In this document: positions 1 to 64,000 of the stretch, piece by piece
Position numbering within the stretch: the first letter of the stretch is position 1
Layout: the number at the start of each line of letters is the position of its first letter
Source: Hydnum rufescens UP504
Taxonomy: Eukaryota; Basidiomycota; Agaricomycetes; Cantharellales; Hydnaceae
Reading direction: 5' to 3'
NCBI GenBank assembly: GCA_014904985.1
Contig: MU128932.1
Location: forward strand, 344,377 to 408,376
Length of the DNA stretch: 64,000 nucleotides
The notes under the pieces: generated by a model
What the model was told of the DNA's origin: nothing
Databases searched by the model: none
Seen by the model: only the letters and a program-made list of their open reading frames with translations
Position numbers and translations under genes: made by a program

Positions 1-2495
1 CGATTGCCCGCTCCAGATCATTGGTGAGACTAAGTGCCTCGAGCCAATATAGCATCTGAGTACGGGTCCAATGCTCAAGACGGTGCTTGGCTAAGGCCGT
101 TTCGTGGCGTGCCTGGGAATTGAGGTGCAGAGCCCAATGCAAGCACGCGTATCGAGCATGGGCGGGAAGGTGAACTTGAATTCGAGTTTCGAGATCGAGA
201 ATAGAGTTGTTGAGACGAAGGGGATCCTTGGAGCCACACATATTGGGATGGAGGATGAGACTCATCGATATGAAACAATCCTCCGCCAACCTGATATCAA
301 ACACGGCTTGATCGGGGAAGAAAAAGTCCCTGAGATTGGTTCCACCGGATTCTGATACCCGTTCGGGAGGGGTGACGATGAAATCACGGAATGATTTATG
401 GTAGAAACGAACCTGCGAGCCGCCGTCTTTAGGAACGAGAAGGACGGATTGGAGGGGGCGCAGGATGTAAAATATAGAATTAGGATCCATCCCAAGTAAA
501 CATGCCAAAGGACGGACACCCAATGGATTTTTAAGGTGGGCGATGGCGCCCATCACGCGCCGATATAGTTTGAAGGTTGATGGGTCGTCTCTGGAAAATG
601 CACGGTCCAAGATCTGGAGATATAACGCGTTGAGGGGCGGAAGTTGGGAGCCAATATTCGGGTCCTCTGGATGAAGGAGTATGCGCAGAGTATCTACGGG
701 CGTCTTGCCAGACTCCGCAGCGCCTTTAATGAGTTTGATTGCTGTAGCTGCGTAGATGAAGAGGCCATCGGCACGGGTAGAGAGTAATTGAAGATCCTCT
801 GCTCCAAGTTTCCATCCTTCCCTAACAGCCCACTCCCCACTCAGCTCATGATGTACGTACCGTCGAATGTCATCGGCTGCGATGGATGCGTCCATGTGAT
901 GTAGATCGATAATGCGAGTGATAGGATGTAACGATCCAACGTGGAACGCAGAATCCATGGCATGCTCTGGTCTACTAGTAACTAGGATTCGAATATGGCT
1001 TGGTATATCCTTGGCGTGTAAACCGAGGAGGTTCAGGATTTCAGTGGCGGATGAAGCAGCAGATTGACCACTACATTCATCAAGGGCATCCAGGATGATT
1101 ACCCATGGCATGGGGCCAGGGATCATATGCCGTAGAGGCTCGATGATCAGTTGCAGCAACTGTGTCTCCATAATAGCATCGTCCACCGAAGGATGTTTGG
1201 CCCGACAATCGTTTAGTGCTCGAGCAAAGTCCTCATTGAATGAGGAAAGCTGACGAGCGAGGGTAGGGAAGACAACCTGAGGGTTGCGGCGGGATTCGCG
1301 GTCGCGTGAGAAGAAAAACGAGGCTGCGAGACGCCCTGCACTGTCCAGTTCTTCAGCGATCGTTTTCGCCAGAGTACTTTTTCCAGTCCCGGGGGGACCG
1401 TGCACCCAACAAAAATGTTCGTGAGGAAACCGGTCGCCAGACGCCCACTCGCGAAGTTCTTGAAGGATCTCTGTGCGCGTGCCATACAGGCAAGTGCGAG
1501 CCGATGAAGCTTCGAAGCTGGCGGACACATGCTTCCCGCGTTTACGATGAGTAGGCAGCGCCCTGACTAGAATATGGGTTGAGCTGTTGCTTCTGTTCAT
1601 GCAGCTAGGAGTTAATATGCTTACTCTCAGACAGGATGACATCTGCCTTTTCTGATAACTCGTCCAGAATGTCCTCTTGACGGATCTCGCCCTCGAGCTA
1701 TGTATTGGATATAGAGTTTCAGAAGGCGAGGCAAAATCGACAACTTCGGGACACGTACTTGAAATGCTTGGAGTGCTTGGCTGATAGAGTTATTGATGGT
1801 CATAATCGTCTTGGAAATAGCCTCCCGATGCACAAAGCGGCCCTTCCAATGGTACGATTTGATTTTCCCCAGATACTGCTCAGACGCGATCAGGCCCCTT
1901 GAAATCAACGGTGCAATGAGCGAAAATGGCAATCGGAATTACACCTTTCAGCCGCACATAGAAAGTCGCTCGAGGCGATACAGTAGAGGGCCCCTACGAA
2001 TGGATCCTCTAGTCCCCGTCTTGAGAAGGGGCTCGAGGATTTGGCTAATGGCCTTGATGTATGCGATAAGCTTATTTGTTTCCTCTTTGTTGGCTTTGAC
2101 CTTCTAAAGAAATCCAAAGCTTCATCTTGTTCCTAGTCTTGGCTGCTCCGCACACTGATACGAACATCAAACATGAGAGCCACCTCCAGCAATAAGGCAA
2201 CAGCACCGTGTAAGCCCGGAACGGGGGCACCAGACAGAGTTTCCTTGACGAGTGAAAGCCATGGAACAGCCCAATCCATGACATCAACGACGACAGCTTC
2301 GGAGGAGAAAGGCAGACCACCGAAGCCTGATCGACGTGCAGACCTTCTCTGTACAGACGTTCTCGGTGGTGTGATCAGCATATATGTGTGACAATGGTAT
2401 GGACACCGAAAGATGCGATTAGTACTGCCCACAAGTTTGGAAGTACGGCGAGTGTAAGTTGCAGAGGATGGGTAGTAAGAGTAGATATCCAACAA
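1..2495 (-). CDS. NACHT-domain NLR-like protein (STAND NTPase), 3' part outside the window
   Basis: Fungal NLR-like proteins are signal-transducing NTPases linked to non-self recognition and regulated cell death. A hand-built model reads (minus strand) an exon ending at 2154, then 2103-1958, 1897-1759, 1697-1625 and 1566 through the left edge, with introns of 50-61 nt. The N-terminal helical part (GAPVPGLHGAV, VKANKEETNKLIAYIK) is the usual pre-NACHT region. Walker A is GPPGTGKST near 1390, preceded by CLYGTRTEILQELREW. The Walker B-like stretch VIILDALDEC lies near 1090. The conserved post-NACHT motif FYHKSFRDFIV is near 390. The frame is open from 1566 to base 1, so any WD40 or other repeat sensor lies outside. 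The start codon is unresolved; 2495 is only the upstream limit of the open frame. Two in-frame stops near 1945 fall inside the proposed 60-nt intron, so I do not call it a pseudogene. Confidence 0.8.
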
Positions 2496-5017
2496 GCGCG
2501 GACTATAGACACTGTTCTGATGCTAGAAGACAGCATCCGGAATGACCTAACAATTCAGGCACTCCACCACAGTTCCCCAGCCCCGGCGTGATCCCAAATT
2601 GGGCCAACATTGGCACGTTCGTCCTTATTTATTATCGGTTTGAGTGCCTGATCCAAAAAGAGTTCACTCATCCCCGAAAACTATTTATTCCACCCTTACT
2701 AGCGCTGTTCCTCCAGGGGGGTTTGCGTTGAAATGACACCAGTTGTAGGAACACAGCCATGGCCTCCTCTATTACGCGTGATGGTGAGAAAAATTGAGTG
2801 ACACAGCCTTTCATGGTTTTCAGGCTATGCTGTGCTTTGTTCGATGCTGGTTAAGAACGAGAAACTCTGGAATCCAAAAGCTACTCACACACAGTGATCT
2901 TTAAACAACCCACCTTATCGAGACCACATGGGCAAGCGAAGGACCCCCGCAAGCTCTATTTGAACCGATCGGCCAAACGGCTGTATGCTCCTAAGCCACA
3001 CACACAGCTTCTTAGGCCACCACGAGTCTCTCCACTGACTTCCACATACATTCTTCACCTTGCCGAAACCCGCGTGTCAGAGAGTGATTCTGCTTCATAA
3101 GATCGGCGAAACATTTCTAGTGCTAGTACCTAATATAGCCAGACTCACCATCCTCGCATTTGGCCGTGTGAGAAAAGATTCGCTGATAGGGGAATTAAGT
3201 AAAGAGAAATACTTCATTAGGTTTGATGTACAAGTATGTGACTGTACGTCGCGCGCGCACAATCACCTGTATTACTGACTATGGAAGGGCCGCGCGCTGA
3301 TTGTACTTCCGTGGCCAGATTGGGTCAAAGAGGGGATTGATGAGCTGTGAATTGGTTCACCAAAATTTCATCCCAAAATCTGTGAAAAAGCACGGACACA
3401 TAGAGCTCTCACAGGGGTCCTGAAAGCATCTGTGGTGCTGTCTGGAAGGCTTCAGACCACCAATAAGGTCATCTAGTGAAGTTCATCTGTTATGAACTCT
3501 CAGCGTGCTAACTCATGGCAGGTCCGCTGAGTGTGGTCATTGCCACGGACAATTTGCGCGTGAGAAACCGGCCCGACGGTGCGAGAATCATGACCCAGCC
3601 CCAGCAAAAACCACTCATATCATGAATGGTCGTAAGAGGGAGGGGAAAAGACAATCCAAAGACTCCCGCTGGCAGGAACAGCCAGATATGAGGAAAGAAC
3701 GCAAAAAGCTTCGGCAATCTCCGCTCCTTGCTACCGGGTCCGGGCCTGTATATTTAGTATTAACACGACTGTACATATGCCTTCCCGCCATAAAGATCTT
3801 GCGACACATGGTCTCCACTACCGCATGCTCCAAAGTCCTGTTACCCTTCAACTGGTCCCGAGAGCCGCATCATGCCTTGCTTGGGTATAGGCTAGTTTTT
3901 GTTAGCGTGACGGGAGATATGGCGTCTGCTTTGCGGACTATACAGCCCGCGCCAATTTTACGGTGCTGGTTAAAAGGTTCTAGTGGGTCTTAGGCGGTTA
4001 ATAAGGGGTGTGTTTAAAACACCCCCGCGCCCGTGTTTAAAAACTATGTTCTGAACACACAATGCTAACATCCTCTTTGACAACTGAAACCTTAGGTCCA
4101 CTACTATTACTACCAGCAGCTGTGCCCTCCAGACCTTCCATAGAATCGCTGCTGATCATGAAAAGATCAAGTATTAAAAAACCAATATCAACCTCTATCA
4201 TCATCCACATCCCCTACATTCACAACTACGCGATGGTCATCAAGATTGAAGTCATCCGATGGATTGTACGAGACCTGATTTCCCTTTCATCATGTTTGGC
4301 ACTGATGTCGTCACTAATTGTCACGTCATGCCCAGTTCTGCGCCGGACGAACCAGTTGCCGGTGCCGGAGTTGGAGATGATTCCCCAGTTATCGAAATAT
4401 TGGTATATTTTGTTAGGTCATGAAAGCCCACATTGGGCATTTCGGTCTATTAGCAGTACGCTAGATGGGTCATTACTTCAATCGGTAGAACCACGGAGAG
4501 GGTTTTTGACGTCCCAAAATCCGACTCTAGGTTTTAGACGCGTAGTCAAAAAGGGGTGTTTAAAACCTAGTTTTTGCTGTCCACCGTTTACACAGCACCC
4601 TAGCGCCAATGTTGGATGAAATAGCCCAAGTCCTGTCTACCATATGTAGGACCAGAGGACGCAAAATTCGACTGGTGCTAGTGTCTTACATAATCACAAT
4701 CCATGACGCCAGGATTGGAATTCGGGCAGTAGCTTCAAAACAAGCGGAATCGAAGAGTTGGTTTACTACTTCCGGCTTTCTGGGTGAGAGACAAGCCACA
4801 AATGCAACCCTGTCTCAGACATACATTGCTTGGACCCAATCAAAAGGGACAGTGGGTGGATGGATTCTTTCATCTTGAAATGGCAGCATGAGAACTTCTC
4901 ACTGAAGTAGCTATGGAGGAGGGAAACACTGCTGTGTGCTAATATTTACTACTATAGTTATGTAGGGTCCCCCAGCATCGTGACAGTGACAGTGACATCG
5001 ATATCAGATCCCAAAGA
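2496..5017. other. Gene-free stretch between NLR and FSH genes
   Basis: I find no convincing gene here. Open frames of 162 codons (3505-3993) and 185 codons (4062-4619) show no recognisable domain and no splice structure. A short motif GGGGTGTTTAAAAC (with a variant GGGGTGTGTTTAAAAC) occurs near 4006 and again near 4553, in the same direction. It could bracket an old insertion of about 550 bp, but I see no target duplication. Confidence 0.4.
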
Positions 5018-6300
5018 ATGACTTTACGAGTTCTCCTCTTTCCTGGCTTCACGCAGAATGCAACTGTTTTTCACCAGAAGGTATGTCTCCATACACCGTC
5101 CCACATCGCTACAGGTTAGGTGGACCTGATCCTTCCTCCGGAAGTTCGCGGCCATCGAGAGAACCTGCGCACATTCTGTAGAATTTGGTGCGTTCCAATT
5201 GAATATACCCAGTTCCTCACCAAGTAAGCATCGGTGGGGTGATATGTGCCTGCAGTATTCCTGGATCCATTCCACGTAATGGAGCCCGTGACGTTGCAGG
5301 GAGAGTCGCTTTCCCAGATCTCCTCGAATGCGTCATACGAGAACGACAGTCCGGAACTCCGGCCACGAGCATGGTGGTTCGCGAATGACGATAAGACCGT
5401 ATATCGTGGACATGCAGAGGCCTTTCAGTACGTTCGCGATTTCCTCGCGAAGACTGAAGTCCCGTTCCACGTGAGTACTAGCTAGATTGCGTGGTCCCTG
5501 ATGTGATGTGGGCTCATTCTCGATACTGGCGGTCTCGGAATCGGAAGGGTGTACTGGGATTTAGTCAAGGTGCAGCTATGGCAGCCCTTATCACAGTCTT
5601 CGTAGGTCGCGTCGTCTTTAGTTGAAGCACCTAAATTCTGACTTTTTTTGGTGGCAATTCTCGATGCTTCCAGCTGGAGCGTCCGGATGTATTCCCCAGC
5701 TTTCTAGTGGATGGGAAATCTCCTCATCCACCTCTGTAAGCACCACCTGTCTCTCTCCGCGTATCAAACGTTCAACGCCATAATGTTCATTGTATGCAGT
5801 CGTTTTGGCGTATTTGTGTCTGGATTTGTGAGGTCGACCCGTTCAAACACTTCTCGCGACTGTTTCATGAAATTTTGATTTTAGAGACCGTTGGATATAT
5901 CACTTTCTTCCGTCTTCAGCACCGGCGTGAAATTCAGCACACCTAGTCTACATGTGCTTGGGCGAAACGATGTTATCGTCTCCACGGCGCGCTCAAAGAC
6001 GCTGATCGACGTATTTGAATCGCCTCGTATAGAATGGCATGACGGAGGTAAGTCCGATGAAAATGGTGATCATTGAAGATGCGGAAGTGTCAATTTACAA
6101 ATTCATTTCGTTTGTTGGTTTCGATTTTTGTATCTATAGGCCACTTTGTCCCATCCAAAGCCACCTGGCGGCAGTTTTTCAAGAATTACTTTGCCAGCTA
6201 CGATGACGAGAGCTCCGTACGGCCTCCAGATGTGCGCTCGCCTGCCCCCGAGGTAGGAAATTCTAGTGTTGAGGCTCCTGGCGCTACGAGAAATCTGTAG
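5018..6300 (+). CDS. FSH1-type serine hydrolase (alpha/beta hydrolase), intact
   Basis: Exons are 5018-5080, 5145-5187, 5256-5470, 5548-5601, 5674-5735, 5800-5827, 5885-6047 and 6140-6300. They sum to 789 nt, exactly 262 codons plus stop. The product begins MTLRVLLFPGFTQNATVF, the LHG(F/Y)TQN-like oxyanion strand of the family. It continues with EFVFLDPFHVMEPV, RAWWFANDD, the nucleophile elbow GVLGFSQGAAMAAL (Ser in GFSQG), SLHVLGRNDVIVS (region of the acid) and DGGHFVPS, which carries the catalytic His. Length and motif order match fungal FSH1/FSH3 and the hydrolases often found in secondary-metabolite clusters, which are predicted cytosolic esterases. The substrate is unknown. The short tail after the last helix is low complexity. 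A degraded 5'-truncated copy lies at about 13985. It is the first gene of the duplicated block that also carries the secreted-protein genes. Confidence 0.85.
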
Positions 6301-7431
6301 GCCTTGAGGTGTTTCCGGTCATGTCCTCGTTCCGTCAGCACGCTTACAGGTATCATACTTCCCGATTCCACTGTGATAGCACAGGCATAACCCTAGATTG
6401 TCTCTCTTTTGTTCCACACTTCCTGTGGCTATTGAAGTTTTCACCCCGGGGGCATTGCGGATCCCAGGACTTGAGTAACTGGTGTACAGTCGGCATCGTG
6501 ACTTCCCCTGGCAGGAATGATCAGTTGGACGTCTCCGGATCTCGGGCAGTCCATGCGTCATGTCTTTAGAATCCTTCCGACTAATCGGTGCTCGTTGGCG
6601 TACCACCTCGTACAATTTGAACTTGAATCCGGCGTACAGTACTAGGGTGTGTTATGTGGCCTTGAATATGGAGAAACTCATGAGTAGGTCTCTGTAGATA
6701 TATATGCCTGCCACTGACGCTCGATATGAGAAACGCTGGGAAGGGATAGCTTGATCACCTCAGGCTGTCGTCAGCCCGTCCACTGAAAGTTCGAAGAGTT
6801 CAGACGGATGAGCAGCAACTGATCCACTGAGTTATTTCTGATGCCTAGCAGTTGTAGACCAGTTTAACCTTACTAAAGCTCAGCAACCCTAATACGATGG
6901 CTGCACTTCTGATGGGCTCATGTGAATGTGAAGGTACGACCATGGGCAAGTATCATAGAGATTACGGTTCTTTATTCTCTCGGCGACAATCACCTCATTT
7001 CATAGTTCTCGATAAGCCCTAGGCTCTAATTCTCATTCTCTTCTGAGTTCCGTAAATCCTTGTCCCATGCGTAGAGAATATAGCTCGGATATTTCAGAGG
7101 AACAGTGAAGTATCAGGATAGTCGCAGACATATCCAGGATCCGGAGAATATGCGGGGCACAATGCAAGGGTGAAGAATTCAGATTGGGAAGGAAATAGGG
7201 CGAGGTGTTCGAGGGGTTATGCCGCACGTTTCGTAATTGACGGAGGGCGGGGGTGGCAATGTGTGTGCGGGAGTCGGGGGCGTCACCAAAGATGGAGAGA
7301 CGATGGAAAAGGATCCTGTTGACCATAGAACCCGCACTCTAATCCAAACCAGAGGACTCGCCGTCGATCCCCCCTAAATCTCCCTATCCCCCCCTCCTCA
7401 GACATACGACCCTGCTAGAACACTCAACACC
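6301..7431. other. Spacer between FSH gene and SSP1, duplicated at 14.6-15.9 kb
   Basis: No gene is supported. The segment aligns by eye with 14625-15905, with scattered substitutions and indels, and belongs to the block duplication. The second copy carries an extra 118-bp insertion that this copy lacks. Confidence 0.5.
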
Positions 7432-46669: not shown

Positions 46670-48090
46670 AATAGTATAAAAGATGGGCTTGAGCCCACAA
46701 AAATCCTAAGGACTTGTCTTGTGTTCTTCCTGCTGCTGGTTATTTCACTTGAATCCTCAAGTCTTGCCAATCCAAATTCATTCTCATCTGCTTAGTAATC
46801 AGGGGGAAATTCTACTTCAAACACCATAACTCTCACAAGGTTATGGGCCCATCATTGCTCTCTTAAAGAAACACATTTACCCCCTATTTTTCCATGACTA
46901 GAAAAGACCACTATGAGTGATGAATTCAAGATTTGAGTTACGAAATTGGCTCCAGACATGTACAAACTGGGTCACATACTGTGACTGGATTATGTGGGCC
47001 CTCAATGCAAAGGGGTGCTGGAGCACCTTATGAGTGACATGATTATGTCAGACTATAGTGCTGCTGGTACAGTCAATGGACTTACACCAGAGGCTTGATG
47101 GAAGAAGGACAAGGCCATGGTCAAACAGCTTGTGGCCAGCTCAGTCCCAGATATGGTATTCAGCCAGATTAAGGCTGGACTCAAGGCCAAGGAGGTCTGG
47201 GATCAGCTCCAGGCTCTGTACAAATGATGATCAAAATTAATTCTGGTTCGATCTATGGAAATGATTGCAGAATACTTGCTGTGGCACAGATGATGACATT
47301 CATGCACATTTCAACAAATTGTCTGATCTCAAGGAGCAGTTGGTGGCCATGGGCACCACTATCATGGATGAAGAGTATGGAAACATCCTACTAGGATCAC
47401 TCCCCAACTCCTACAATAACATGATAAATTCAATTATGGCAGCTGCAGAGCTCAGTGGCATGCCTATTATGCCAAATTTGGTAATTTGACTCATGATGGA
47501 TGAGTATGATTGGTGAACTCTGAAGAAGGGAAAAGCCAAATTGAGTAACAATGAGGCCATTTCATGCCAATGGGCAGGCCAGAGGAACATTGAGTGCTTT
47601 AATTGCCACTGAAAAGGGACACTTCAAAGTGGATTGTTGGGTGAAAGGGGGAGGAAAGGAAGGGAAGGGACCTCATGGATCACTGAGCTCTAGGACAGGT
47701 GCTATGGAAAGCACTTCAGCAGCTGCACATGCCGACATGTTGAGGCATGGGCAACAATCGAGGCCATGAGGCCACAGCCAGATATGCATGCAACAATGAA
47801 CAAACAAACAAAATCCCCCACTTATGCCAAAATATACAATTCAGGGGCCACTCAACACATGTCACCATATAAGGATCAATTTATCAATTATCATTCCAAT
47901 GACCCCTGCCCTGATTGCTGCTGCTGACAAACATATATTTTATGCTGTTGGTACTGGTGACTTAAAGATACAAGTACCAAACAAAGGAAAATTCACCATG
48001 GTCATCTTATGTGACACCCTTCATGTGCCAGAACTCAGATTAACCATCATCTCAATAAGCTGGATTACTGTTATGAGTCATACTCACAAC
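46670..48090 (+). mobile_element. Ty1/copia gag-protease relic with LTR-like leader
   Basis: A TATA-containing leader (ATAGTATAAAAGATGGGC at 46673) precedes a decayed gag reading in several frames. The traces are K-x-VWDQLQALYK near 47200, FNKLSDLKEQLVAMG, LLGSLPNSYNNMINSI and a CCHC zinc knuckle (CFNCH..GHFKVDCW near 47590-47640). Near 47830-47870 YNSGATQHMSPYKDQF is the copia protease region, with Asn where the catalytic Asp (DSGA) should be. Near 48020 LHVPELRLTIIS corresponds to the end of the protease. Stops and frame changes are frequent, and no integrase or reverse transcriptase follows. Confidence 0.7.
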
Positions 48091-48899
48091 CTCATGAGAT
48101 TAACTGTGGCTCTCCCACAATCATGTGACTTCGCTGCCTGTTGCTTACAACTCCCAATCCTCCTTCTTTATTAATCCACTCCTTCTTGCTGACATCTCCC
48201 CATCCTTTATTCATCCTTCCCTTCTTAGTAACCACCTCAGGCTGGTCAGACACTTTTAAGGGCCTTAAAAGGTATGTCATTTTGATGTCTGTATAATGCC
48301 CAATAGGCTTGTATTATGTTTGATATCAAAAAGTGATCAAATGTGTGTTTGATACCAAAAGAGCTGGGTTTTGAGATCAATTTTGGGCCTTGTAAAGTAA
48401 TCCATCCTCCACTGGCCATAAGATTTCCTGTGGAAGTTTATGTAGAAATTCATGCTAAGGCCAGCAGCTTCATGGGATATCATTATACAGGCAGACCCAC
48501 AAGTATAGCAGTAAATCACAAGGGGATCAGTCACAGGGGGGAATCAACTGGAATGGGTTCAAATAATGCTGTGAATGGATATATCTGGTTGGGGATATTG
48601 GATAGGTCCTGGCAAGCCTGGGAATGCCCCTGAGTGGGTCAGCGGGCTATACAGGCTAATCGGCAATAAGCACACTTATTTATATTTATTTACTTCATTA
48701 TCATCCACATATCACACATAAATAATTCATTTATTATTGTTTTATACACATATCCTAGATATCTATCTACCCTGCCTCACTCAGGGTTGCAAGTTTTCAG
48801 TTGGTAGGATTGTGGGTCTTCACTTGGTGGTTTGTGGGTTTCAGGGAGCAGGGGTTGAGGTGGGTTCTGGGTTCAGATGAATAAATCATAAAAGAAAAA

Positions 48900-50110
48900 A
48901 AAAAACATGCAAATGGAGCAGCATCGGCTGCTCCTTTTGCGCGACAGTACATGTAGACATAATATACTTACCTGAAAATCACCACACCTGCCGCAGTGGG
49001 TGTGGTGTGTGGGTTTCCTGCATCTTTGTTTGGTGTGTGTTCACTGGGTGGGCTGGGTTGTCATTTGTGTGGGTTGACATGTAGGGGGAGGGGTGGAAAG
49101 GGTGGTTCAGCTGCATCCCCAGGTTCTCATTTGGCAGGGCTACACTTCGCTGGCTGCAGTTCAGGTAAAACCTGGAATAAAAAGATAATGTTAGTCAAAC
49201 ATTAAAACCAGCACAAAAAGAGCAGCATTTGCTGCTCTTTTTGCACTGTTGGGGTATATCTTGTTACTTACTTTATATAGAACCACACACCTGCCAAAGC
49301 GGGTGTGCAGTTCACGTGACCACTTGATTGATGCATTCTCATTGCCTATTGCATTTGCATTTGGTGTATGGCCATTTGGGCCTGGGCTGGTTGGACCCTT
49401 GTCATTTGGCCAGTTTTCATCAGGTGCCTTGAAACATGTCATGAGCTAAGATAGTAAAGATATATCAGTAAAAAAAAATCAAATCAGTGCAAAAAGAGCA
49501 GCTTTCACTGCTCTTTTTGTGCCATTGGGTACATGAAAGTACTCACCTCCTAAAGCACCATACCTGCCACAGTGGGTGTGTGGTTGGGGTGGTTTCTTGC
49601 TTGGTGGGGTCTCATTTGGCAGATGGTTGTTCAGCCAATGTGATTGTTGTCTGGGGGGCTCGGGGGGCGGGTCTTGGTTCAGGCAATGTCCTGGAATAAT
49701 CTATAATATGTTAGTTAAAATTGAAACTAGCACAAAAAGAGCAGCATCTGCTGCTCTTTTTGCACTATTGGGGTACACATCATTACTTACTTTATATAGA
49801 ACCACACACCTGCTTCAATGGGGGTGCGGTTCGCATGCCCACTCGATTCCCAGGGTCTCATTGTTTATCATGTTCATTTGGTGTATAGCCATTTGGCCAC
49901 TCACCATCTGGGCCCCTGTCATTTCTCCAGTTTTCATCTGCTACCTTGGAACAGGCCACAATCTAAAATAATAGAAGATACATTAGTAAAAATAATTTAA
50001 AGCAGTGCAAAAAGAGCAGCTTTCACTGCTCTTTTTGTGCCATTGTAGCTACTTGAAAAAAAACTCACCTAGTGACCACACACCCATGGCAGCAGGTGTG
50101 TGGTTGTCTG
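48900..50110 (-). repeat. Left arm: five exon-intron-like modules, minus orientation
   Basis: Read leftwards from the centre, predicted introns are 50068-49963, 49790-49701, 49546-49446 and 49271-49172, plus a fifth beginning at 48971. Donors are GTGAGT or GTAAGT. Branch-like CTAAC, CTAAT or CTGAT and a TAG/CAG acceptor follow. Each intron carries an internal palindrome (AAAAAGAGCAGC..GCTGCTCTTTTT; at 50005-50040, 49730-49764, 49488-49522, 49211-49246 and 48909-48940). The exon-like parts (154-200 nt) end in a second palindrome (ACCACACACC..GGTGTGTGGT type; near 50074, 49800, 49557, 49281 and 48981) 5-20 nt before the donor. One exon-like part reads as DENWPNDKGP..PNGHTPN, and another has a related VADENWRNDRGP. 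Exon lengths are not consistently multiples of three. Confidence 0.7.
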
Positions 50111-50384
50111 TTTCCTTTTTGGGGTGGTTTCCTTGTTGGGTGGCGGTGGTTGGTAGTGGGAGAGGGAACAAAACTTGATGCTGGCAATTGCTGGTACTCA
50201 AAAAGTGCCCAAAGTGCCTGGCACCATGAGTACCATATGAATTAGTAGCAAATAACTAGATGTATAATAAGTAATATATAATCAATATTTCCCCAAAAAA
50301 TTAAAGAAGACCATGGCAATAAGTCAAGAGTTCTGTAAGGCATGATATAATACATTGCAACTTGGATTGGGTGATTTCTACAGT

Positions 50385-51476
50385 CCAGAATTGCCCCAAA
50401 TTTGAATATGTTGGTGAAATACATGAACCCTACATGGGTGATTAATTATTTTGAATGTTCTCTCCATTGTTTAATTTTTTGCACTGTTGGAAGGATAAAC
50501 CCCTAATACATACAATCCATATCAAGACCCAACTACCTCCTCAAACAAATCCATAATATTCAATTCCATTCCTTCAATTCCCTGCCATTCCTTTGATTGT
50601 CATATGGCATGGATTTCAATTCTTCAAGACCGTGCCTTATTCATTTTTCCTCTACCTTGTACATGAGACAATTATTTGTCCATCCCCAAGTCTTCAACAG
50701 GCCACCTGAAATTGTACTTACTTCAAGCCCAACCAATTGTGGTAATGGAAATTCAACTTGCCTCTTTCACTTAATAGTCAATCTGCTGCATAGTGTCCAT
50801 TGCCTTAAGGGCAGTATATGAGTCTGGATTATCACCTAAGCCAATGGATTCAACTCGCAGACTAGTCACATGTTAAATAGGGGCTATTGCAACACTCTCA
50901 AGGAGTAAACACGGAATATCTCCCTCAGTTTTAATCAGATCGACTCAAAAAACAGCTCCCAAAAAGCTACAATTTAGACCTTTCAAAAAATATTAGATTA
51001 ATGTTTATTGGACATGAACTGCACTCTCCAAGTTGATTTTATTATGTGTCTCATACTGCCCTTCAGTACGTTTCAAATTTCTGCATCATTTTTCATTCAA
51101 ATTGTTTGGGATAACCATGCCTAGAAATACGCTGAAAGTGTTCATATAATGGTACCAAGGGCAAGGTGATTGGATTAAAACTCCACTTTATACAGTTTAA
51201 CTCCATCATGTTTCATTTCATCATTGCCTCTGCTTTTTGGATTATTAATGGCAATTATTCTCTACCCCCCTTATATCCGGCGAAGGGTACATCTAGGGTG
51301 ACCTGTTCCACTATCCCCCAAGGGAATCTGTTCATCAGGAGAGGAGGAATAGCTTGGTCAAGCCATATTTCACTTTTCTGACTTGATATTTGAATATTTC
51401 CTTCAGTTTTGAAGATTTTGACTGGATCTCTTTTTCATCATTTTCACCTTAATCCCACCTTTCTGCCAGTTACCAT
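50385..51476. other. Unique centre of the palindromic element
   Basis: About 1.1 kb of AT-rich sequence without inverted homology to itself and without a gene. Both arrays would be transcribed away from here, so any promoter for them should lie in this stretch; I cannot point to one. Confidence 0.4.
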
Positions 51477-53009
51477 GAAATTTTTCCAGGATGTAATCCA
51501 TGTTGCAATGTATTATATCATGCCTTATAGAACTCTGACTTATTGTCATGGTCTTCTTTATTTTGGGGGGGAAATATTGATTATATATTACTTATTATAC
51601 ATCTAGTTATTTGCTACTAATTCATACAGTACTCGTGGTGCCAGGCACTTCGGGTGCTTTTTGAGTACCAGCAATTGCTGGCATTGAGTTTCATTCCTTC
51701 TCCCACTACACAACCACTGCCACCCAACAAGGAAACCACCCCAAAAAGGAAACAGATGACCACACACCTGCTGCTGCAGGTGTGTGGTCACTAGGTGAGT
51801 TTTTTCAGAACATAGTAGCTACAATGGCACAAAAAGAGCAGTGAAAGCTGCTCTTTTTGCACTGCTTTAAATTATTTTTACTAACATATCTTTTATTATC
51901 TCATGTGACCTGTTCCAAGGTAGCAGACAAAAATTGGTGAAACAACAAGGATCCAACCAGCCAGGGCCCCAACAGCAGCACACCAGCCAAGAACACGACA
52001 AAGAAAACCACAAAAATGCCCATGCAACCAGGGGAGATGACAATGCACCCAGCAAGCAGCTGTGCAAACCACACACCCACTACAGTGGGTGTGTGGTTCT
52101 CTGTACAAGATGAGTCTCCCCCCCCCAATGTATCCAGCCATGCAAAAAGAGCAGTGAAAGCTGCTCTTTTTGCACTGGGTTTAATTTTTTACTAACATGA
52201 TCTTTTATTCTCTGTCATCAAGGTGAAAATGCACCAAATGAAAACCTGGGGATATGCCAAATGAACCCCCCCCCTCTTCTGGTACACTACGACAAAGAAA
52301 ACATGACCTGACAGGTGGCTGCATGCCCAGCGAATGGCTGCACAAACCACACACCTGCTATGGTGGGTGTGTGGTTCTCTATATACAGTAAGTCCCCCCA
52401 ATATATGCAACCATGCAAAAAGAGCAGTGAAAGCTGCTCTTTTTGTGCTTCATTGAATTTCTTTACTAACTTGATTATTATTCTAGGTCCTGGCCTGGTC
52501 CCAGGTGCCAAATGACAAGACCCAACCAGGGCCCCCTGCGGCAACATGCCAGGTGAAACAATGCCAAATGAAGGCATGGGAGGTGGCAATGCAAACCACA
52601 CACCTGCTGTGGTGGGTGTGTGGTTCTATATATGGTAAGTACACTTATACACCCACAATGGTGTGCAAGAGCAGCAGATGCTGCTCTTGTGCTGATTTTA
52701 GTTCTTAACTAATACAATATTAATTTTTCTAGGTTATTGACCAGAAGCAGCAAAGTGACAACCTGCTGAACAAACCACCCCCCAGAAATGATGATGGGAC
52801 CTGCCAATGATGACTGGCCAGACAAAACCCAGATGGAACCACACACCCACTTTGGTGGGTGTGTGGTAATTTTAAGGTAAGCATCTGTCCAGCCATGCAA
52901 AAGGAGCAGCATTTGCTGCTCCTTTTGCCTGCCTTTTCTTTTTTTTTTCTTTTTACTAACTTATTATTTACTATTCTATATTGTCATTTGAACACACAAT
53001 GAAGGCCCC

Positions 53010-53856
53010 TGTCAGGATCAAATTGACATTTGCTTCCGCCTAAGGACTTACCCGTCAGAGTATTATTCTTCATCGACTCTATCATATGGCGCCTACTTCC
53101 TCAAATGCTCTTGTCTCCTCTATCCCTCCATTCACTATGGGGGTTATTGTCATCCTTGCCATTATTGGCATTTCTCTTATTATTATTGCCCTTGTTCTAT
53201 CAGGCCTCGGCCAGCGGGCTATGGGCTGGGTAGCCAACCAGTGGCAGCATTGGCGCCCTTGTCAGCACCTGTCGTTCCCTAGCTCCCCACGTGAGTCCAT
53301 GGAGTTGCCAATCCAGACTCCCCCTCCTCCTCCTCTACCCCCAGTCCCTGCATCCACATCACCTGTCCCAATCCATACTCCATCCACGTCATTACGGTCA
53401 TTTGACACTTTGGACACCTTTGGAGTACCCAGGCGTACACTGCCTTGGAAGTACATACGCTAAGGGGGATACATATGGAAGTTGGGGCATAGCCATGTGG
53501 AGGTGCGCACAGGATTCGTAACACAGCTGCGTCAGCTTAGTGAGGCTTAGTGATGGTGGCTGTGGAGGCTGACTGATGGGCTGTGGAGCCGGCATTCTAG
53601 GAGGATCCGGAAGGTTATGGAAGACGGCGGAAGGCTCTGGAAGGTTGGAGGCTGTGTGCAGGAAATAGTATTTATAGCCCTTCGCAGTTGGGGGATCACC
53701 AGTTTTGATCTCTCAGGATTCCCACTGCGATAGGTGCGAGACTTGTGTGTCCCTTGTTGTGTGGTGTATACTCAGGATTCCCACTGCGATAGCGTGTGGT
53801 TAATTAATCTCTTTCCTCTTTCTGTTTGTGGCTTCGACGGCAGTGTCGCCCTGACA
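53010..53856 (+). mobile_element. Solo LTR, gypsy-like ends, 5-bp target duplication
   Basis: It starts TGTCAGGATC and ends GCCCTGACA, the TG..CA form common in fungal gypsy LTRs. It is flanked by GCCCC at 53005-53009 and 53857-53861. Removing it restores a normal module of the surrounding array. A TATA-like TATTTATAG lies near 53668. A 22-bp direct repeat (starting CTCAGGATTCCCACTGCGAT) occurs twice between 53718 and 53793. No second LTR or internal region is present. Confidence 0.8.
53086..53463 (+). CDS. Small single-pass membrane protein ORF inside the solo LTR
   Basis: 125 codons starting MAPTSSNALVSS. One strong membrane segment (GVIVILAIIGISLIIIALVL, about residues 19-38) is followed by a basic/aromatic stretch and a Pro-rich tail (TPPPPPLPPVPAS). 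No family recognised. The ORF lies entirely within the U3-like part of the LTR. LTR-encoded ORFs are uncommon, so it may be a short ORF by chance, a remnant of the element's last gene, or captured sequence. Confidence 0.4.
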   Translation: MAPTSSNALVSSIPPFTMGVIVILAIIGISLIIIALVLSGLGQRAMGWVANQWQHWRPCQHLSFPSSPRESMELPIQTPPPPPLPPVPASTSPVPIHTPSTSLRSFDTLDTFGVPRRTLPWKYIR

Positions 53857-55337
53857 GCCCCCACCAAACAAAACCTGTGGCCCACCTGACGAAACCTGGG
53901 ACCAGCAACCTGTGACACAAGACAACAGAAAGCACAGACAGGACCACACACCTGCCAAAGTGGGTGTGTGGTCATTTCAAGTAAGCATATCTCAACCATG
54001 CAAAAGGAGCAGCATATGCTGCTCCTTTTGTGTGGCTTGTTTTTTTCTTTTTCACTAATGTATTATTTATTATTTTAGGTTGCCATCTGAACCCACAATG
54101 AAGCCCCCTGCCAAAACCCCAACCAAATGAAACCTGCCCACAATCCACTAACCAGACAAAACCTGGGACCGGAAACCCATGACACAAGACCACAAAGCAT
54201 AGACAGAACCACACACCTGCTGAAGTGGGTGTGTGGTAATCACAAAGCCACAGAGAAGAACAGCAGGAGCATAGAGTGCCACACACCCACTGCGGTGGGT
54301 GTGTGGCCTTATAAAGTATGTATTTTTTTTAATAACCACAAACACACAAAAAGAGCAGCAGTCACTGCTCTTTTTGTGTGAGTTTTAATTATAACTAACA
54401 TATTTTCTATTCTAGGTCAACCCCACACAAGCCCAAATCTGCCAACCCCCCAGGATCCCAATGAAACCCCATGCATGAGTACACACCAGCACACAAATGA
54501 ATGAATGATGATGCATGCACAAAGCCAGGGAGGAAAAGAAGGAGCCACACCTGCCACAGCAGGTGTAGCAATATCAGGTAAGTAATTTTTCTCTAGCTAC
54601 AAATGTGCAAAAAGAGCAGCAGTTGCTGCTCTTTTTGCACAATTATTACTCTTCAACTAACTTTTATTTTTTATTCTAGGCTAAGATGTCCACCTAAACC
54701 TGTGAAACCACACAGCCATGATGAAACCACACAGCCATGACAAAACCATGGAACCATGCCAAAACCATGCAGCCATGCCAAAACCACGCAGCCACAAACA
54801 CAAACCTGCAGCCATGAATGCAATGCACAAGCCCCAAATGGTGCCCCATGACCATGTGATGAATGGGACCTGCACAAAGTGGCAACCGAAGGTCCCAGTG
54901 TACCCCCTGCCCCCTGCAAATGTGTGGACTGGCAAATGACCACACACCCACTGTGGCGGGTGTGGTCATCTAAGGTGATTCCCCCTCTCCTATAGATACA
55001 GCAATGCAAAAGAGCAGCAAAAGCTGCTCTTTTTGTGTCACTTTTAACTATTCACTAACCTAACTTTTTTTATTTTAGATCTTGCTCCCCCAAATCCACA
55101 TGAGCCCTGTATGAAAAATTGAGGGTGGAAAGTACACAGCCATGGTACAAACGAGTACCACACACCTACTTTGGTGGGTGTGTGGTACTACAAGGTATTT
55201 AATTTTTTTTACTAATGTATGCTATTATTTTAGGATCCAAATTGATGCTCCCCAAACAATGACCCACTGCAACGGCGACCTGCAACTCGTCCAAACAACC
55301 TGCCCAATGGTGAATTGCCAAGCCCAGCCCCTCATAC

Positions 55338-55793
55338 CACACACTCACCCTAGTGGGTGTGTGGTGCTACTAAGCACTTTTTTTTTTGAGATCTATGGAT
55401 GGTACCACACCCACCTAGGGCAGGTGTGTTTTTTTTAAATTGAATTCTTGACTAAATAAATAAACAAGTCAATAACAACAAAACATGAGACTGCCCTGCT
55501 GACCTGGGGCAGTATATGTATAATATAGCAATAATAAATAAATAATTATAAATACCCGATAAGCCTGTATGGCCCATTGACCCACTTGGGGGCATTCCTG
55601 GGCTTGCCGGGTCCTATCCTGATACCCCCAGTCAAATATGAGTTTGATATCAAAATGCCTATGGGCAGACTTACAGATTGACCTAAGGTTACCCTCTTGA
55701 AATTATTTGATATCAAAGGATTCTGATGCCTCTTAGGCTTTTGATTTGATGCAGTTTGACATACCTATTAAGGCCCCTCTAAGTGGCTGACCA
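55338..55793. other. Outer right part of the palindromic element
   Basis: Two further exon-end type palindromes (55338, 55402) lack introns. After them comes sequence inverted to 48243-48890 (shared CAGGCTTATCGG/GCCTGGGAATGCCCC-type words) up to the terminal inverted repeat. Confidence 0.5.
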
Positions 55794-55891
55794 AGGTGAC
55801 CCAAGACCCAACCTCAAGTATCAGTGGCAAAATAAATATGTTGCCAGACCCACTTCAACAGGTGTGGCAATATTAGTTAGTTTCTATATTA

Positions 55892-56612
55892 CAGTCTTTG
55901 ACCAGTCACTGAATCAAATTTCCCGGAACCTTGCCGCTGCCAGCACAATATTGTTTTTTGGTTGTTTTTGTCTACTATCTAGTAGGAGGATATCCCATCT
56001 ACCCATGTATACAATTTCAGAGCAGTCTGAACAATATTGGGGGAGATGTTATGTTGTGCCATTTTGATGTTTGTTTTATAACTCGACCAGTCACTGAAGC
56101 ACTTTTCCTGGAGTGATTGGACGAGGCAGTTTTTTTATCTTGTCTATTGGCATGTAATTAAAATGTGATTCCATGCATATTCCAATGCTTTTTGAAGTAT
56201 TCTAAGCCCTGTAGTGTGTATCTGAAGTGGTGAAAGTCCCGCTGGGTCTCCAATTTGCTTCCGCAGCCCCTCCTGGTGATGCAGAGAGCAGTTGACTAGA
56301 TTAGCTCTGGAGCTAGACCTCTTAAGATCCTTATCTAGTTGTCTTTCTGATGTAGGATTGCATGTAAAATCACTGGATGGGTCTTTGTGTGGTGCTGTGG
56401 GGGCTGGTGCAGATTTCAGACATTTTACAAAATTGCACTCTTCCCTATGTTATGCAACAACAGCTGAACATATTGACACCAAATTTGGTACAGTGAAAGT
56501 TCCCATCAGTGTGATCAAATAGAGCCCACAATCAAGCTGCTACAACTTGAAATGGTGGAGATAATTGAGGTGATTCAGTGACTGGTAGAGTTCAGTGACC
56601 GGTCAAAGACTG
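55892..56612. mobile_element. Tc1/mariner-like MITE (721 bp) with TA duplication
   Basis: The ends read CAGTCTTTGACCAGTCACTG from the left and CAGTCTTTGACCGGTCACTG from the right, flanked by TA (55890-55891, 56613-56614). Extra copies of the CAGTGACTGG/CCAGTCACTGAA word occur just inside both ends (56084, 56570). No ORF for a transposase. It sits between an exon-end palindrome (55842-55868) and an intron palindrome (56632-56664). This means it inserted into one more module of the array, lying outside the terminal repeats of the palindromic element. Confidence 0.8.
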
Positions 56613-57162
56613 TATGGGGTGTATGACAATGCCAAAAGAGCAGCACCCAGCTGCTCTTTTTTGATTTTTTGTCCTTACTGATGCACCAGAATGTGTCTAT
56701 ATAATAATAAATAATTGGTTATCTAATGGCACTAGTGGAGAGGGGATATGAATTTTGATGTGAGATGATACATCTGCTGGTGGTTTCAAAACATAGGCTG
56801 TGGGGATATTCAAACCTGCCTGCATATTCCCAGGGATGGTGGGTTCTTGGCAGGTTTTAGGCACAGGTCCACATTGGTACTCCTGCCCTGTGGGGGAAAT
56901 CCCCATGGGGTCAAAACCCATGGGTTTTGAAACCTTGTGCAATACCCTAGTTATTTCTGGTTTTGCATCCAGATGGTGTTGAGTTGCATTCAAAATAAAT
57001 TGCACTGAATTCTTGGTTCTCAGTTTTACATCTGGGTGGGGTGGAAAGTACTCAACTTACATCCTATAGCTTGCAGGTGTGTTGCCCTCATTTTGGCTCA
57101 GATCGGACTAGAAGCACACCTAGGGTCAAGTAATGAACTTGTTACTGACATTGTGATTATGC

Positions 57163-62880: not shown

Positions 62881-64000
62881 GACCCCTTTGAATAGTGCTC
62901 CATGTGTAACTGATTGAATTGTTCCCAGGATCTTCTCAACAGCAAGGAATCCCTTTTTCTTTGATTGTTGCTCGAGAGGTTGGCTCTGGTAGGCTTGCTG
63001 TTCTTCAAATTGAGACTGCAGGAACTCGTCGCTGAGTGGGATTCTGGCTCTCTTCTCCTGAGCAATTATGAGGTGAGCCTTCATAGCTTTCACACGCTTC
63101 TCCAACCAGACACCTGCCTGTTGCATCTTCAAGTGGTCCAGATGTTCAATTTGGAGATCCAAAACAAACAAACGTCGATGGAATCCGGTTACACGGAGAT
63201 TTGGAATGAGGCGCTGAAGATCATTCCAAAGGTGTTCACAACCCTCTCCATCAGTGAGGCCCCAGACACCCCCCTTCTGAGGATTGTACCATAGCTGGCA
63301 CACCCACTGATGGCAATATCCATGAAACACACTTATTCCAAACACAATCCGGGGTATCCACCGAGGCAACAGATTCCACTTAAGTATGCTGCGATGAATC
63401 TGGCAGCTGATATTGTACAGGATACCAACTCACCAGTGCATGGGAAGCTCAGCCATGATCACGTCAATGAGAGCCAATGCATAGAATTGCTGTTCACCGG
63501 GAGTCCACATATTCACCCACATGACCACACGATCATGACGACATACACCTGCCATCACACCAGTGTCTGAGAAGCGCTCTCCAGGAGTCTTTACCCTGTC
63601 ACCATCTGCAGCAATGAAGGATTCACCACAGATATTTAGCGACAAATTTGGGACATGTAGCCCAGCCTTGATAATGTCATCATCAGCATCTGGGCCATCC
63701 AGGGCATATTCTCCCTTCTTCGACATTCGCCTAGCTGGATTGCCAGGATGGGCTTCTTCAACCCTTGCTTTCCAGATCTCCAGAAAACTTCGGGGCAATT
63801 TGCGGGTTCCAGGTGGAACAATGCAAGGGTCCTGAATGCCTGGTTGCTTTTTGTGGCCTGGCCGCCGATTGTAGTCTTTGTTCCTCCTGATGGCGAAGCA
63901 GGCATCAAGGCAGGCTGGTCAGCCAATTATCCATGTCTAATTAGATATCATTAGCCTTGCATTTATCTAGTCTAATAAGATACATTTCCATGGGGCCCCT
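62866..64000 (-). pseudogene. KDZ-type transposase, C-terminal part, with a premature stop
   Basis: KDZ (Kyakuja-Dileera-Zisupton) transposases are large RNase H-fold enzymes that are abundant in mushroom-forming fungi. Reading leftwards, SDTGVMAGVCRHDRVVMWVN and PGEQQFYALALID are the conserved first half of the core. The line VGILYNISCQIHRS is the region usually written YDIGC, with Asn in place of Asp. GLTDGEGCEHLWNDLQRLIP and VTGFHRRLFVLDLQIEHLDH form the second half. Both halves are in the same frame and are separated only by one TGA at 63430-63432. The Asn substitution and the stop indicate a dead copy. The 5' part lies outside the window. Confidence 0.75.

Follow-up and report, generated by a model that had tools for sequence, protein, structure and literature searches.

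Inverted arrays of noncoding exon-intron modules in Hydnum rufescens as the probable cargo of KDZ-type transposons

We analysed a 64,000-nucleotide stretch of the Hydnum rufescens UP504 genome (C24:344377-408376; hereafter the window) together with the rest of this one assembly (63.2 Mb, 539 contigs) and with relatives, which were loci picked by their likeness to an element at window positions 48238-55798. This element consists of two inverted arrays of exon-intron modules between ends like those of KDZ (Kyakuja-Dileera-Zisupton) transposons. We propose that it probably belongs to the non-autonomous KDZ-type transposons and that it carries as cargo a transcription unit that is divergent, noncoding and spliced several times. 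More tentatively, and with somewhat less than even confidence, splicing itself may be the selected cargo. The elements would then be protein-free DNA transposons with a two-way axis promoter and tandem hairpin introns kept by selection on spliced noncoding RNA, an arrangement adopted by several KDZ-type families with terminal inverted repeats (TIRs) and present in some hundreds of copies, with about 6500 introns, in this single genome.

Inverted exon-intron arrays spanning 48243-55793 had been described in the initial annotation of this DNA, and both the sequence and its self-inversion support that description. The element contains 14 intron hairpins, five in the left arm on the minus strand and nine in the right arm on the plus strand, in agreement with the earlier count of at least 13 modules. 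In a module, an exon that closes with a hairpin of the type CCACACACC...GGTGTGTGG is followed within a few bases by a donor, then by a further hairpin of the type GCAAAAAGAGCAGCnnnnGCTGCTCTTTTTGC, by a branch site and finally by an acceptor; the hairpin at the end of each exon and the one within each intron had been overlooked. The intron hairpin pattern GAGCAGCNNNNGCTGCTC (GAGCAGC..GCTGCTC) matched 19 times in the window, compared with a mean of 2.45 and a maximum of 6 in shuffled sequence, and all 14 matches with no or one mismatch lie inside the element. Splice signals had been claimed for most modules and are indeed found there: the branch motif CTNAY is present in 13 of the 14, CTNAY together with a YAG within reach in 11, and a loose GT donor match in the gap between the hairpins in 12. 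The earlier reading had been made to depend on spliced reads or on further genomic copies; such copies exist, and the same architecture is found on many contigs. Since the architecture recurs in this way, it is unlikely that the palindrome arose as an assembly artefact.

The association of hairpins and splice signals was examined in 118 modules, which were selected on the two hairpins alone, blind to splice signals. The donor GTRWGY was present in the gap in 90 of them, the branch motif CTAAY in 97 and the branch motif with a YAG in 87, and 70 modules had all three. The corresponding numbers on the opposite strand were 4, 1 and 1, and the donor motif occurred within the 60 nt before the exon hairpin in 10 modules. 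An alignment was made of 116 of these modules, two being dropped by a slightly stricter cut. Their median pairwise identity, from 1500 sampled pairs, was 0.54. Conservation reached 0.88 and 1.00 at the donor G and T, 0.92 at each of donor positions 5 and 6, 0.89-0.99 across ACTAA and 0.83-0.91 across TAG, whereas exon columns averaged 0.50 upstream and 0.54 downstream. For a set of 86 modules selected with the signals, the T content of the exons was 9-14% in bins from 20 to 120 nt downstream of the acceptor and from 20 to 80 nt upstream of the donor, compared with 47-50% over the final 40 nt of the intron. The median intron length was 106 nt.

These measurements bear on the possibility that the arrays are selfish or neutral satellite-like filler, in which a piece of an intron-bearing gene gave rise to the module, unequal exchange multiplied it and recent copying preserved the splice signals as passengers. 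Tandem duplication has been recent in places, as four modules of the L032 relative are spaced 285-287 bp apart. Homogenisation acts near the axes of most palindromes (see below), and one palindromic element with KDZ-like ends, L011:7033-9616, has no modules, both of which agree with filler. However, simple copying would keep all columns alike, so the uneven conservation of modules that are as diverged as these counts against this explanation, and so does the shift in base composition at the splice sites. We consider it unlikely that the arrays are filler.

The hairpins were examined in 100 distinct intron and 119 distinct exon examples, the core of each stem being fixed by the pattern used to pick them. 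Nearly all core pairs form in these stems of about 15 bp. Outside the pattern, intron pair 7/26 was paired in 99 of 100 hairpins compared with 82.5 expected (A-T in 75, G-C in 22), and intron pair 3/30 in 89 compared with 66.4. Exon pairs 1/32 and 2/31 were paired in 81 and 107 of 119 hairpins, where 45.6 and 89.3 were expected. At these four pairs, pairing survives changes on both sides of the stem. On the loop side of the exon stem, C/T and G/A vary independently on the two sides of pairs 12/21 and 13/20, which looks like the pattern expected if CpG sites had been methylated and had then decayed.

Hairpins could also act at the level of DNA, as binding sites for a transposase or a host protein, so that the palindrome would serve transposition rather than transcription. 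Many TIR transposons carry subterminal repeats, each module has two well-kept hairpin palindromes and the arrays fill the space towards the ends. The fixed order of donor, hairpin, branch site and acceptor and the T-poor exons are left unexplained by such a function, and an autonomous copy with the same ends (C157, below) is without the intron hairpin. We regard a purely DNA-binding role as most improbable.

The interior of the element had been described as mostly noncoding, and this agrees with our test of 42 internal exons in 12 exon chains from the window and the fetched loci. No open frame beyond chance runs through the joined exons, as 0.15-0.86 of shuffles reached the longest frame observed in the 12 chains. 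Exon lengths leave remainders of 0, 1 and 2 on division by three in 16, 16 and 10 cases, and an open frame was found in 16 of the 42 exons where 12.9 were expected. Coding arms, or a multi-exon protein gene, were rejected on these grounds. Two deposited gene models of this genome, P0121 and P0122, predict proteins that contain AKMPHPN and GQHTPP or GQHIPP. In L032, AKMPHPN starts immediately after a predicted acceptor; in L032 and L011, the first codon of GQHIPP is shared with the base before the exon start, which fits a codon split by an intron. The models show that annotation also read these stretches as exons, which is not proof of splicing or of coding.

Genome-wide, the intron hairpin was found at 6526 sites with at most two mismatches, compared with 2 for the reversed control pattern, which rules out a chance origin of this number. 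With modules of ~280 bp each, we estimate that they occupy roughly 1.8 Mb, or near 3% of the genome. The order of the signals is the same in nearly all matches: the hairpin is followed by CTAAC in 2786 matches (1411 + 1375) and preceded by it in 45 (22 + 23), while GTAAGT precedes the hairpin in 1329 matches (673 + 656) and follows it in 14 (5 + 9). These are counts of matches rather than sites, and a site with two CTAAC motifs scores twice. The modules listed on contigs C1-C5 are mostly clustered. Among the 30 listed within 2 kb of ten listed axes on C1, C2, C3 and C5, 28 point outward, and the other two may belong to neighbouring elements.

The initial annotation had the arms diverge from a unique centre, and this part did not hold. 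Window positions 50485-51494 are a dispersed repeat of ~1 kb that recurs over most of its length, with 74-79% identity, at 29 other places; this is a lower bound, as it covers scored matches only and shorter matches occur elsewhere too. A unique centre with a function of its own was therefore rejected. The eight other palindromes examined have the junction of their arms at one shared axis sequence, CAATTnCCTATTTAGGnAATTG, or at a variant of it that differs by one or two bases. In the window, the axis and a right-hand counterpart of about 116 bp have been lost where the repeat sits. The palindrome is thus real as an inverted arrangement but imperfect and lopsided, with five modules facing nine and a right arm broken by an 847-bp insertion resembling a long terminal repeat (LTR). 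In the whole genome, and with up to two mismatches allowed, the axis pattern matched 345 times on the forward and 342 times on the reverse strand, and the control not at all. A perfect site read in reverse differs from the pattern at two positions, so that many sites were counted on both strands, and the number of distinct axes is at least 345.

Identity between the two arms over the first 300 bp was 0.89-0.99 in seven of nine true axes (L011, L013, L014, L030, L031, L033 and L036). It was 0.91 and 0.78 near the axis of L010 and 0.65 and 0.59 near that of L032, while the medians between elements were 0.68 and 0.60. Over the next 120 bp, arm identity fell to 0.48-0.88 and was in several cases no better than the between-element median of 0.59. 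It seems that a homogenising process maintains near-perfect symmetry at the centre of most palindromes. In several elements the near-perfect part extends over 300-500 bp per arm around the axis, and transcription across it would produce a long hairpin RNA. The element might therefore be a source of double-stranded or small RNA, for instance through read-through of the palindrome, as the initial annotation had suggested. The outward orientation of the modules argues otherwise, since outward RNAs would not span the axis and, judging from their orientation, the transcripts of the two arms would be of the same sense and not complementary to each other. The stems within the modules are also shorter than the usual substrates of Dicer. 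We consider such a source very unlikely.

The axis of L033, TTTCCTATTTAGGAAA, is one base off the Mcm1 motif TTTCCTAATTAGGAAA as tabulated in PMC1779545, and in this it resembles palindromic MADS-box (Mcm1 P-box/CArG) promoter sites. The other axes have a CCTATTTAGG core in common and differ in their flanks.

The ends of the element had been recognised as inverted repeats, which is correct; comparison with relatives places the true limits 5 bp further out on each side, at 48238 and 55798. Copies of the terminal 264 bp of the right side and of about 141 bp of the left side lie on many contigs, and a shared end pattern, GACATACCTnTTAAGGCCC, was found at 130 places (61 + 69) compared with none for the control. 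We compared 100 listed ends of the 130 (49 L-type and 51 R-type) with 146 positions of the KDZ domain, entered from 150 listed of 154 reported with the four weakest left out. A KDZ domain lies 1542-1583 bp inward of 8 of the 49 L-type ends and within 5 kb outward of one, and for the 51 R-type ends it lies inward of one and outward of one. A full autonomous copy of 15661 bp on contig C157, with AACTCGAC on both sides, has an open reading frame that matches PF18758, the KDZ domain, with an E value of 1.9e-44, and the ends of the window element match those of this copy. None of the KDZ matches listed (150 of 154) falls inside 48238-55798, as expected for a non-autonomous copy. Many arrays elsewhere end in related but different termini (TGnCTGACYnnnnTG).

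Left and right ends were paired over the window, L009-L033, L036 and C157, which gave 12 pairs. An exact 8-bp duplication flanks three of them, L013, L030 and C157; the remaining nine differ at four or more positions, and none of 72 shifted controls differs at fewer than four. The L013 element (882-7082, duplication AATGTCAC) and the L030 element (498-6331, duplication GTTATTGA) each contain eight intron hairpins. A thirteenth pair on C64, formed by L014 3853 and L015 1153 across two fetched stretches, encloses arrays in 8201 bp and has TTTACCTG on both sides. It therefore strengthens the part of our interpretation that concerns mobility, and only that part. The initial annotation had also called for empty sites, and one was found. 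The L030 element is inserted in the tail of a copy of the window element's own family, and when its two flanks are joined, 79 of 80 bases are identical to the window, which therefore holds the empty site of L030.

Three loci with ends of this kind stand out. The L011:7033-9616 element is 2.6 kb long, with an interior that is 94% palindrome, KDZ-like ends and an absence of intron hairpins. CCATGCC stands in direct orientation in both of its flanks, a duplication that is shifted by one base and was for this reason scored as a mismatch in the pair count. In L036, an array element, the same 269-bp L-type terminal sequence occurs twice in inverted orientation (158-426 and 4958-5226, 99.6% identical), and an R-type end directly adjoins one of the two copies. 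Near the right edge of the window, a KDZ transposase domain with one internal stop lies on the minus strand at 63136-63912 (C24:407512-408288, E value 2.4e-43), with a KDZ-like end motif at position 63911.

We propose that these transposons, with TIR ends that start with CA and finish with TG and with 8-bp target duplications generated by the family, would be moved by KDZ transposases that autonomous relatives, for example the 15.7-kb C157 copy, provide in trans. The cargo would hold no protein gene and would form a divergent noncoding transcription unit, with a dyad-symmetric axis and its Mcm1/CArG-like site in the centre (lost in the window copy) and rows of modules read outward on each side. 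Each module would supply a T-poor noncoding exon with a terminal hairpin, followed by a 5' splice site, by a further hairpin that separates the donor from the branch point, and by the branch site and acceptor themselves. Transcription by RNA polymerase II would most likely begin close to the axis and proceed both ways, giving RNAs that would be spliced several times. Exon sequence would drift, and selection for efficient splicing would preserve the signals. The element may benefit in that it is kept transcribed and that RNA silencing of poorly spliced transposon RNA is avoided. In Cryptococcus, SCANR feeds poorly spliced transposon RNA into RNA silencing (PMC5851062); by analogy, well-spliced RNA of the element could escape silencing.

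Several observations weigh against this proposal. The window copy is without an 8-bp duplication (its flanks are AACCACCT and ACCCAAGA) and is for this reason classed as having KDZ-type ends; the copy may be rearranged. Exact duplications were found in only three of eight array-bearing loci with both ends visible (L013, L030 and L014/L015), the others being the window, L009, L031, L032 and L036. A KDZ-like terminus is absent at some array ends, such as those of L020 and L033, within the stretch fetched. Since the C157 copy has no modules or intron hairpins, the cargo is connected with a KDZ transposase through the shared ends. The donor motif is absent in 28 of the 118 modules and CTAAY in 21, so that many copies look decayed. 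Most stem pairs hardly vary and consequently pair no better than column composition predicts. The donors of the P0121 and P0122 models fall inside the exon hairpin and not at GTRWGY, and the models may be pure software predictions. The likeness of the axis to an Mcm1 site is a resemblance of sequence, found in a basidiomycete transposon, and our case for transcription and splicing of the arrays is likewise built from sequence features.

The window element shares its ends with copies that encode PF18758, and relatives have 8-bp duplications. Target duplications are reported as 8 bp for Zisupton (PMC12730594) and for Cryptococcus KDZ1, and 4-8 bp for KDZ2 and KDZ3 (PMC12810828). The window element differs in being without a transposase and in its palindromic noncoding exon-intron array, of which the parts of the KDZ accounts compared make no mention. 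Foldback transposons (FB, Galileo and TIR-MULE types) consist mostly of long inverted repeats. Self-inversion in the window element and in its relatives reveals the same composition, and the earlier comparison with foldback elements holds in this respect; the short ends belong with KDZ-type TIR transposons instead, and oriented splicing modules make up the inversion, which has a conserved dyad axis at its centre. Introners and introner-like elements are repeats with splice signals that in some fungi form stable hairpins. The modules resemble them in their hairpins and in the predicted donor, branch and acceptor signals that occur together in the 70 modules counted above, but here many tandem introns and noncoding exons lie within one transposon. 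We call the modules introner-like, the strict sense of introner being reserved for elements inserted as introns within host genes. We found no described equivalent in literature on KDZ, foldback, introner and Hydnum transposons, as judged by titles and the openings of abstracts in a collection that lies mostly outside subscription papers and bioRxiv.

The usual explanation for selection on splicing is the protein that exons encode. Thousands of introns seemingly kept in noncoding mobile DNA would separate selection on splicing from selection on coding, and this suggests that splicing itself may matter to such transposons. If the RNAs are spliced, the family would offer hundreds of natural replicates for asking why splicing helps a transposon, be it through escape from splicing-coupled RNA silencing, opening of chromatin or avoidance of R-loops. 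The same replicates could serve to test how intron hairpins influence splicing and how a near-spacerless transposon palindrome stays almost perfect by homogenisation.

Table 1. Features of the array element in the window (positions in window coordinates; a dot marks features given without strand).
Feature	Position	Strand	Remarks
Left KDZ-type terminus, L-type end CAGGCTGGTCAGACA...GGTATGTC	48238..48383	-	Terminal ~146 bp common to autonomous KDZ copies
Subterminal block, left copy	48575..48669	-	Second copy near the right end (55556-55639); also in the tails of several further array elements
Left arm, 5 exon-intron modules	48900..50110	-	Intron hairpins start at 48916, 49220, 49496, 49739, 50014
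Left-arm exon hairpins	about 48982, 49284, 49559, 49805, 50077	-	
Inner left arm	50111..50368	.	82-95% complementary to 51495-51751
Axis-region remnant, left half	50369..50484	.	Right-hand counterpart and axis itself gone
Foreign ~1-kb repeat TGTTGGAGGGATAAAACCC..., possibly LTR-like, in place of palindrome axis	50485..51494	+	
Inner right arm	51495..51751	.	Self-inversion
Right arm, 9 modules	51759..55450	+	Intron hairpins start at 51836, 52149, 52422, 52669, 52904, 54007, 54353, 54614, 55012
Right-arm exon hairpins without intron hairpin	about 54210, 55159, 55338, 55405	+	
Solo-LTR-like insertion (TGTCAGG...CCTGACA), 847 bp, in right-arm module	53010..53856	.	5-bp duplication GCCCC at 53005-53009 and 53857-53861
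Uninterrupted target TCAATAAC, empty site of 5.8-kb L030 array element	55469..55476	.	
Right KDZ-type terminus, R-type end ...GACATACCTATTAAGGCCCCTCTAAGTGGCTGACCAAGGTG	55529..55798	+	

The 847-bp LTR-like insertion was matched, in part in some cases, in 7 of 20 loci searched, and by eye it has an open frame for a small membrane-like protein. To the left of the element, positions 47000-48080 are degenerate and by eye resemble a Ty1/copia gag with a CCHC knuckle. Just beyond the right end, at 55815-56730, lies an isolated module-like stretch with an exon-type hairpin near 55845 and an intron-type hairpin at 56637; by eye, it is broken by an insert of ~720 bp with inverted ends CAGTCTTTGACC...GGTCAAAGACTG.

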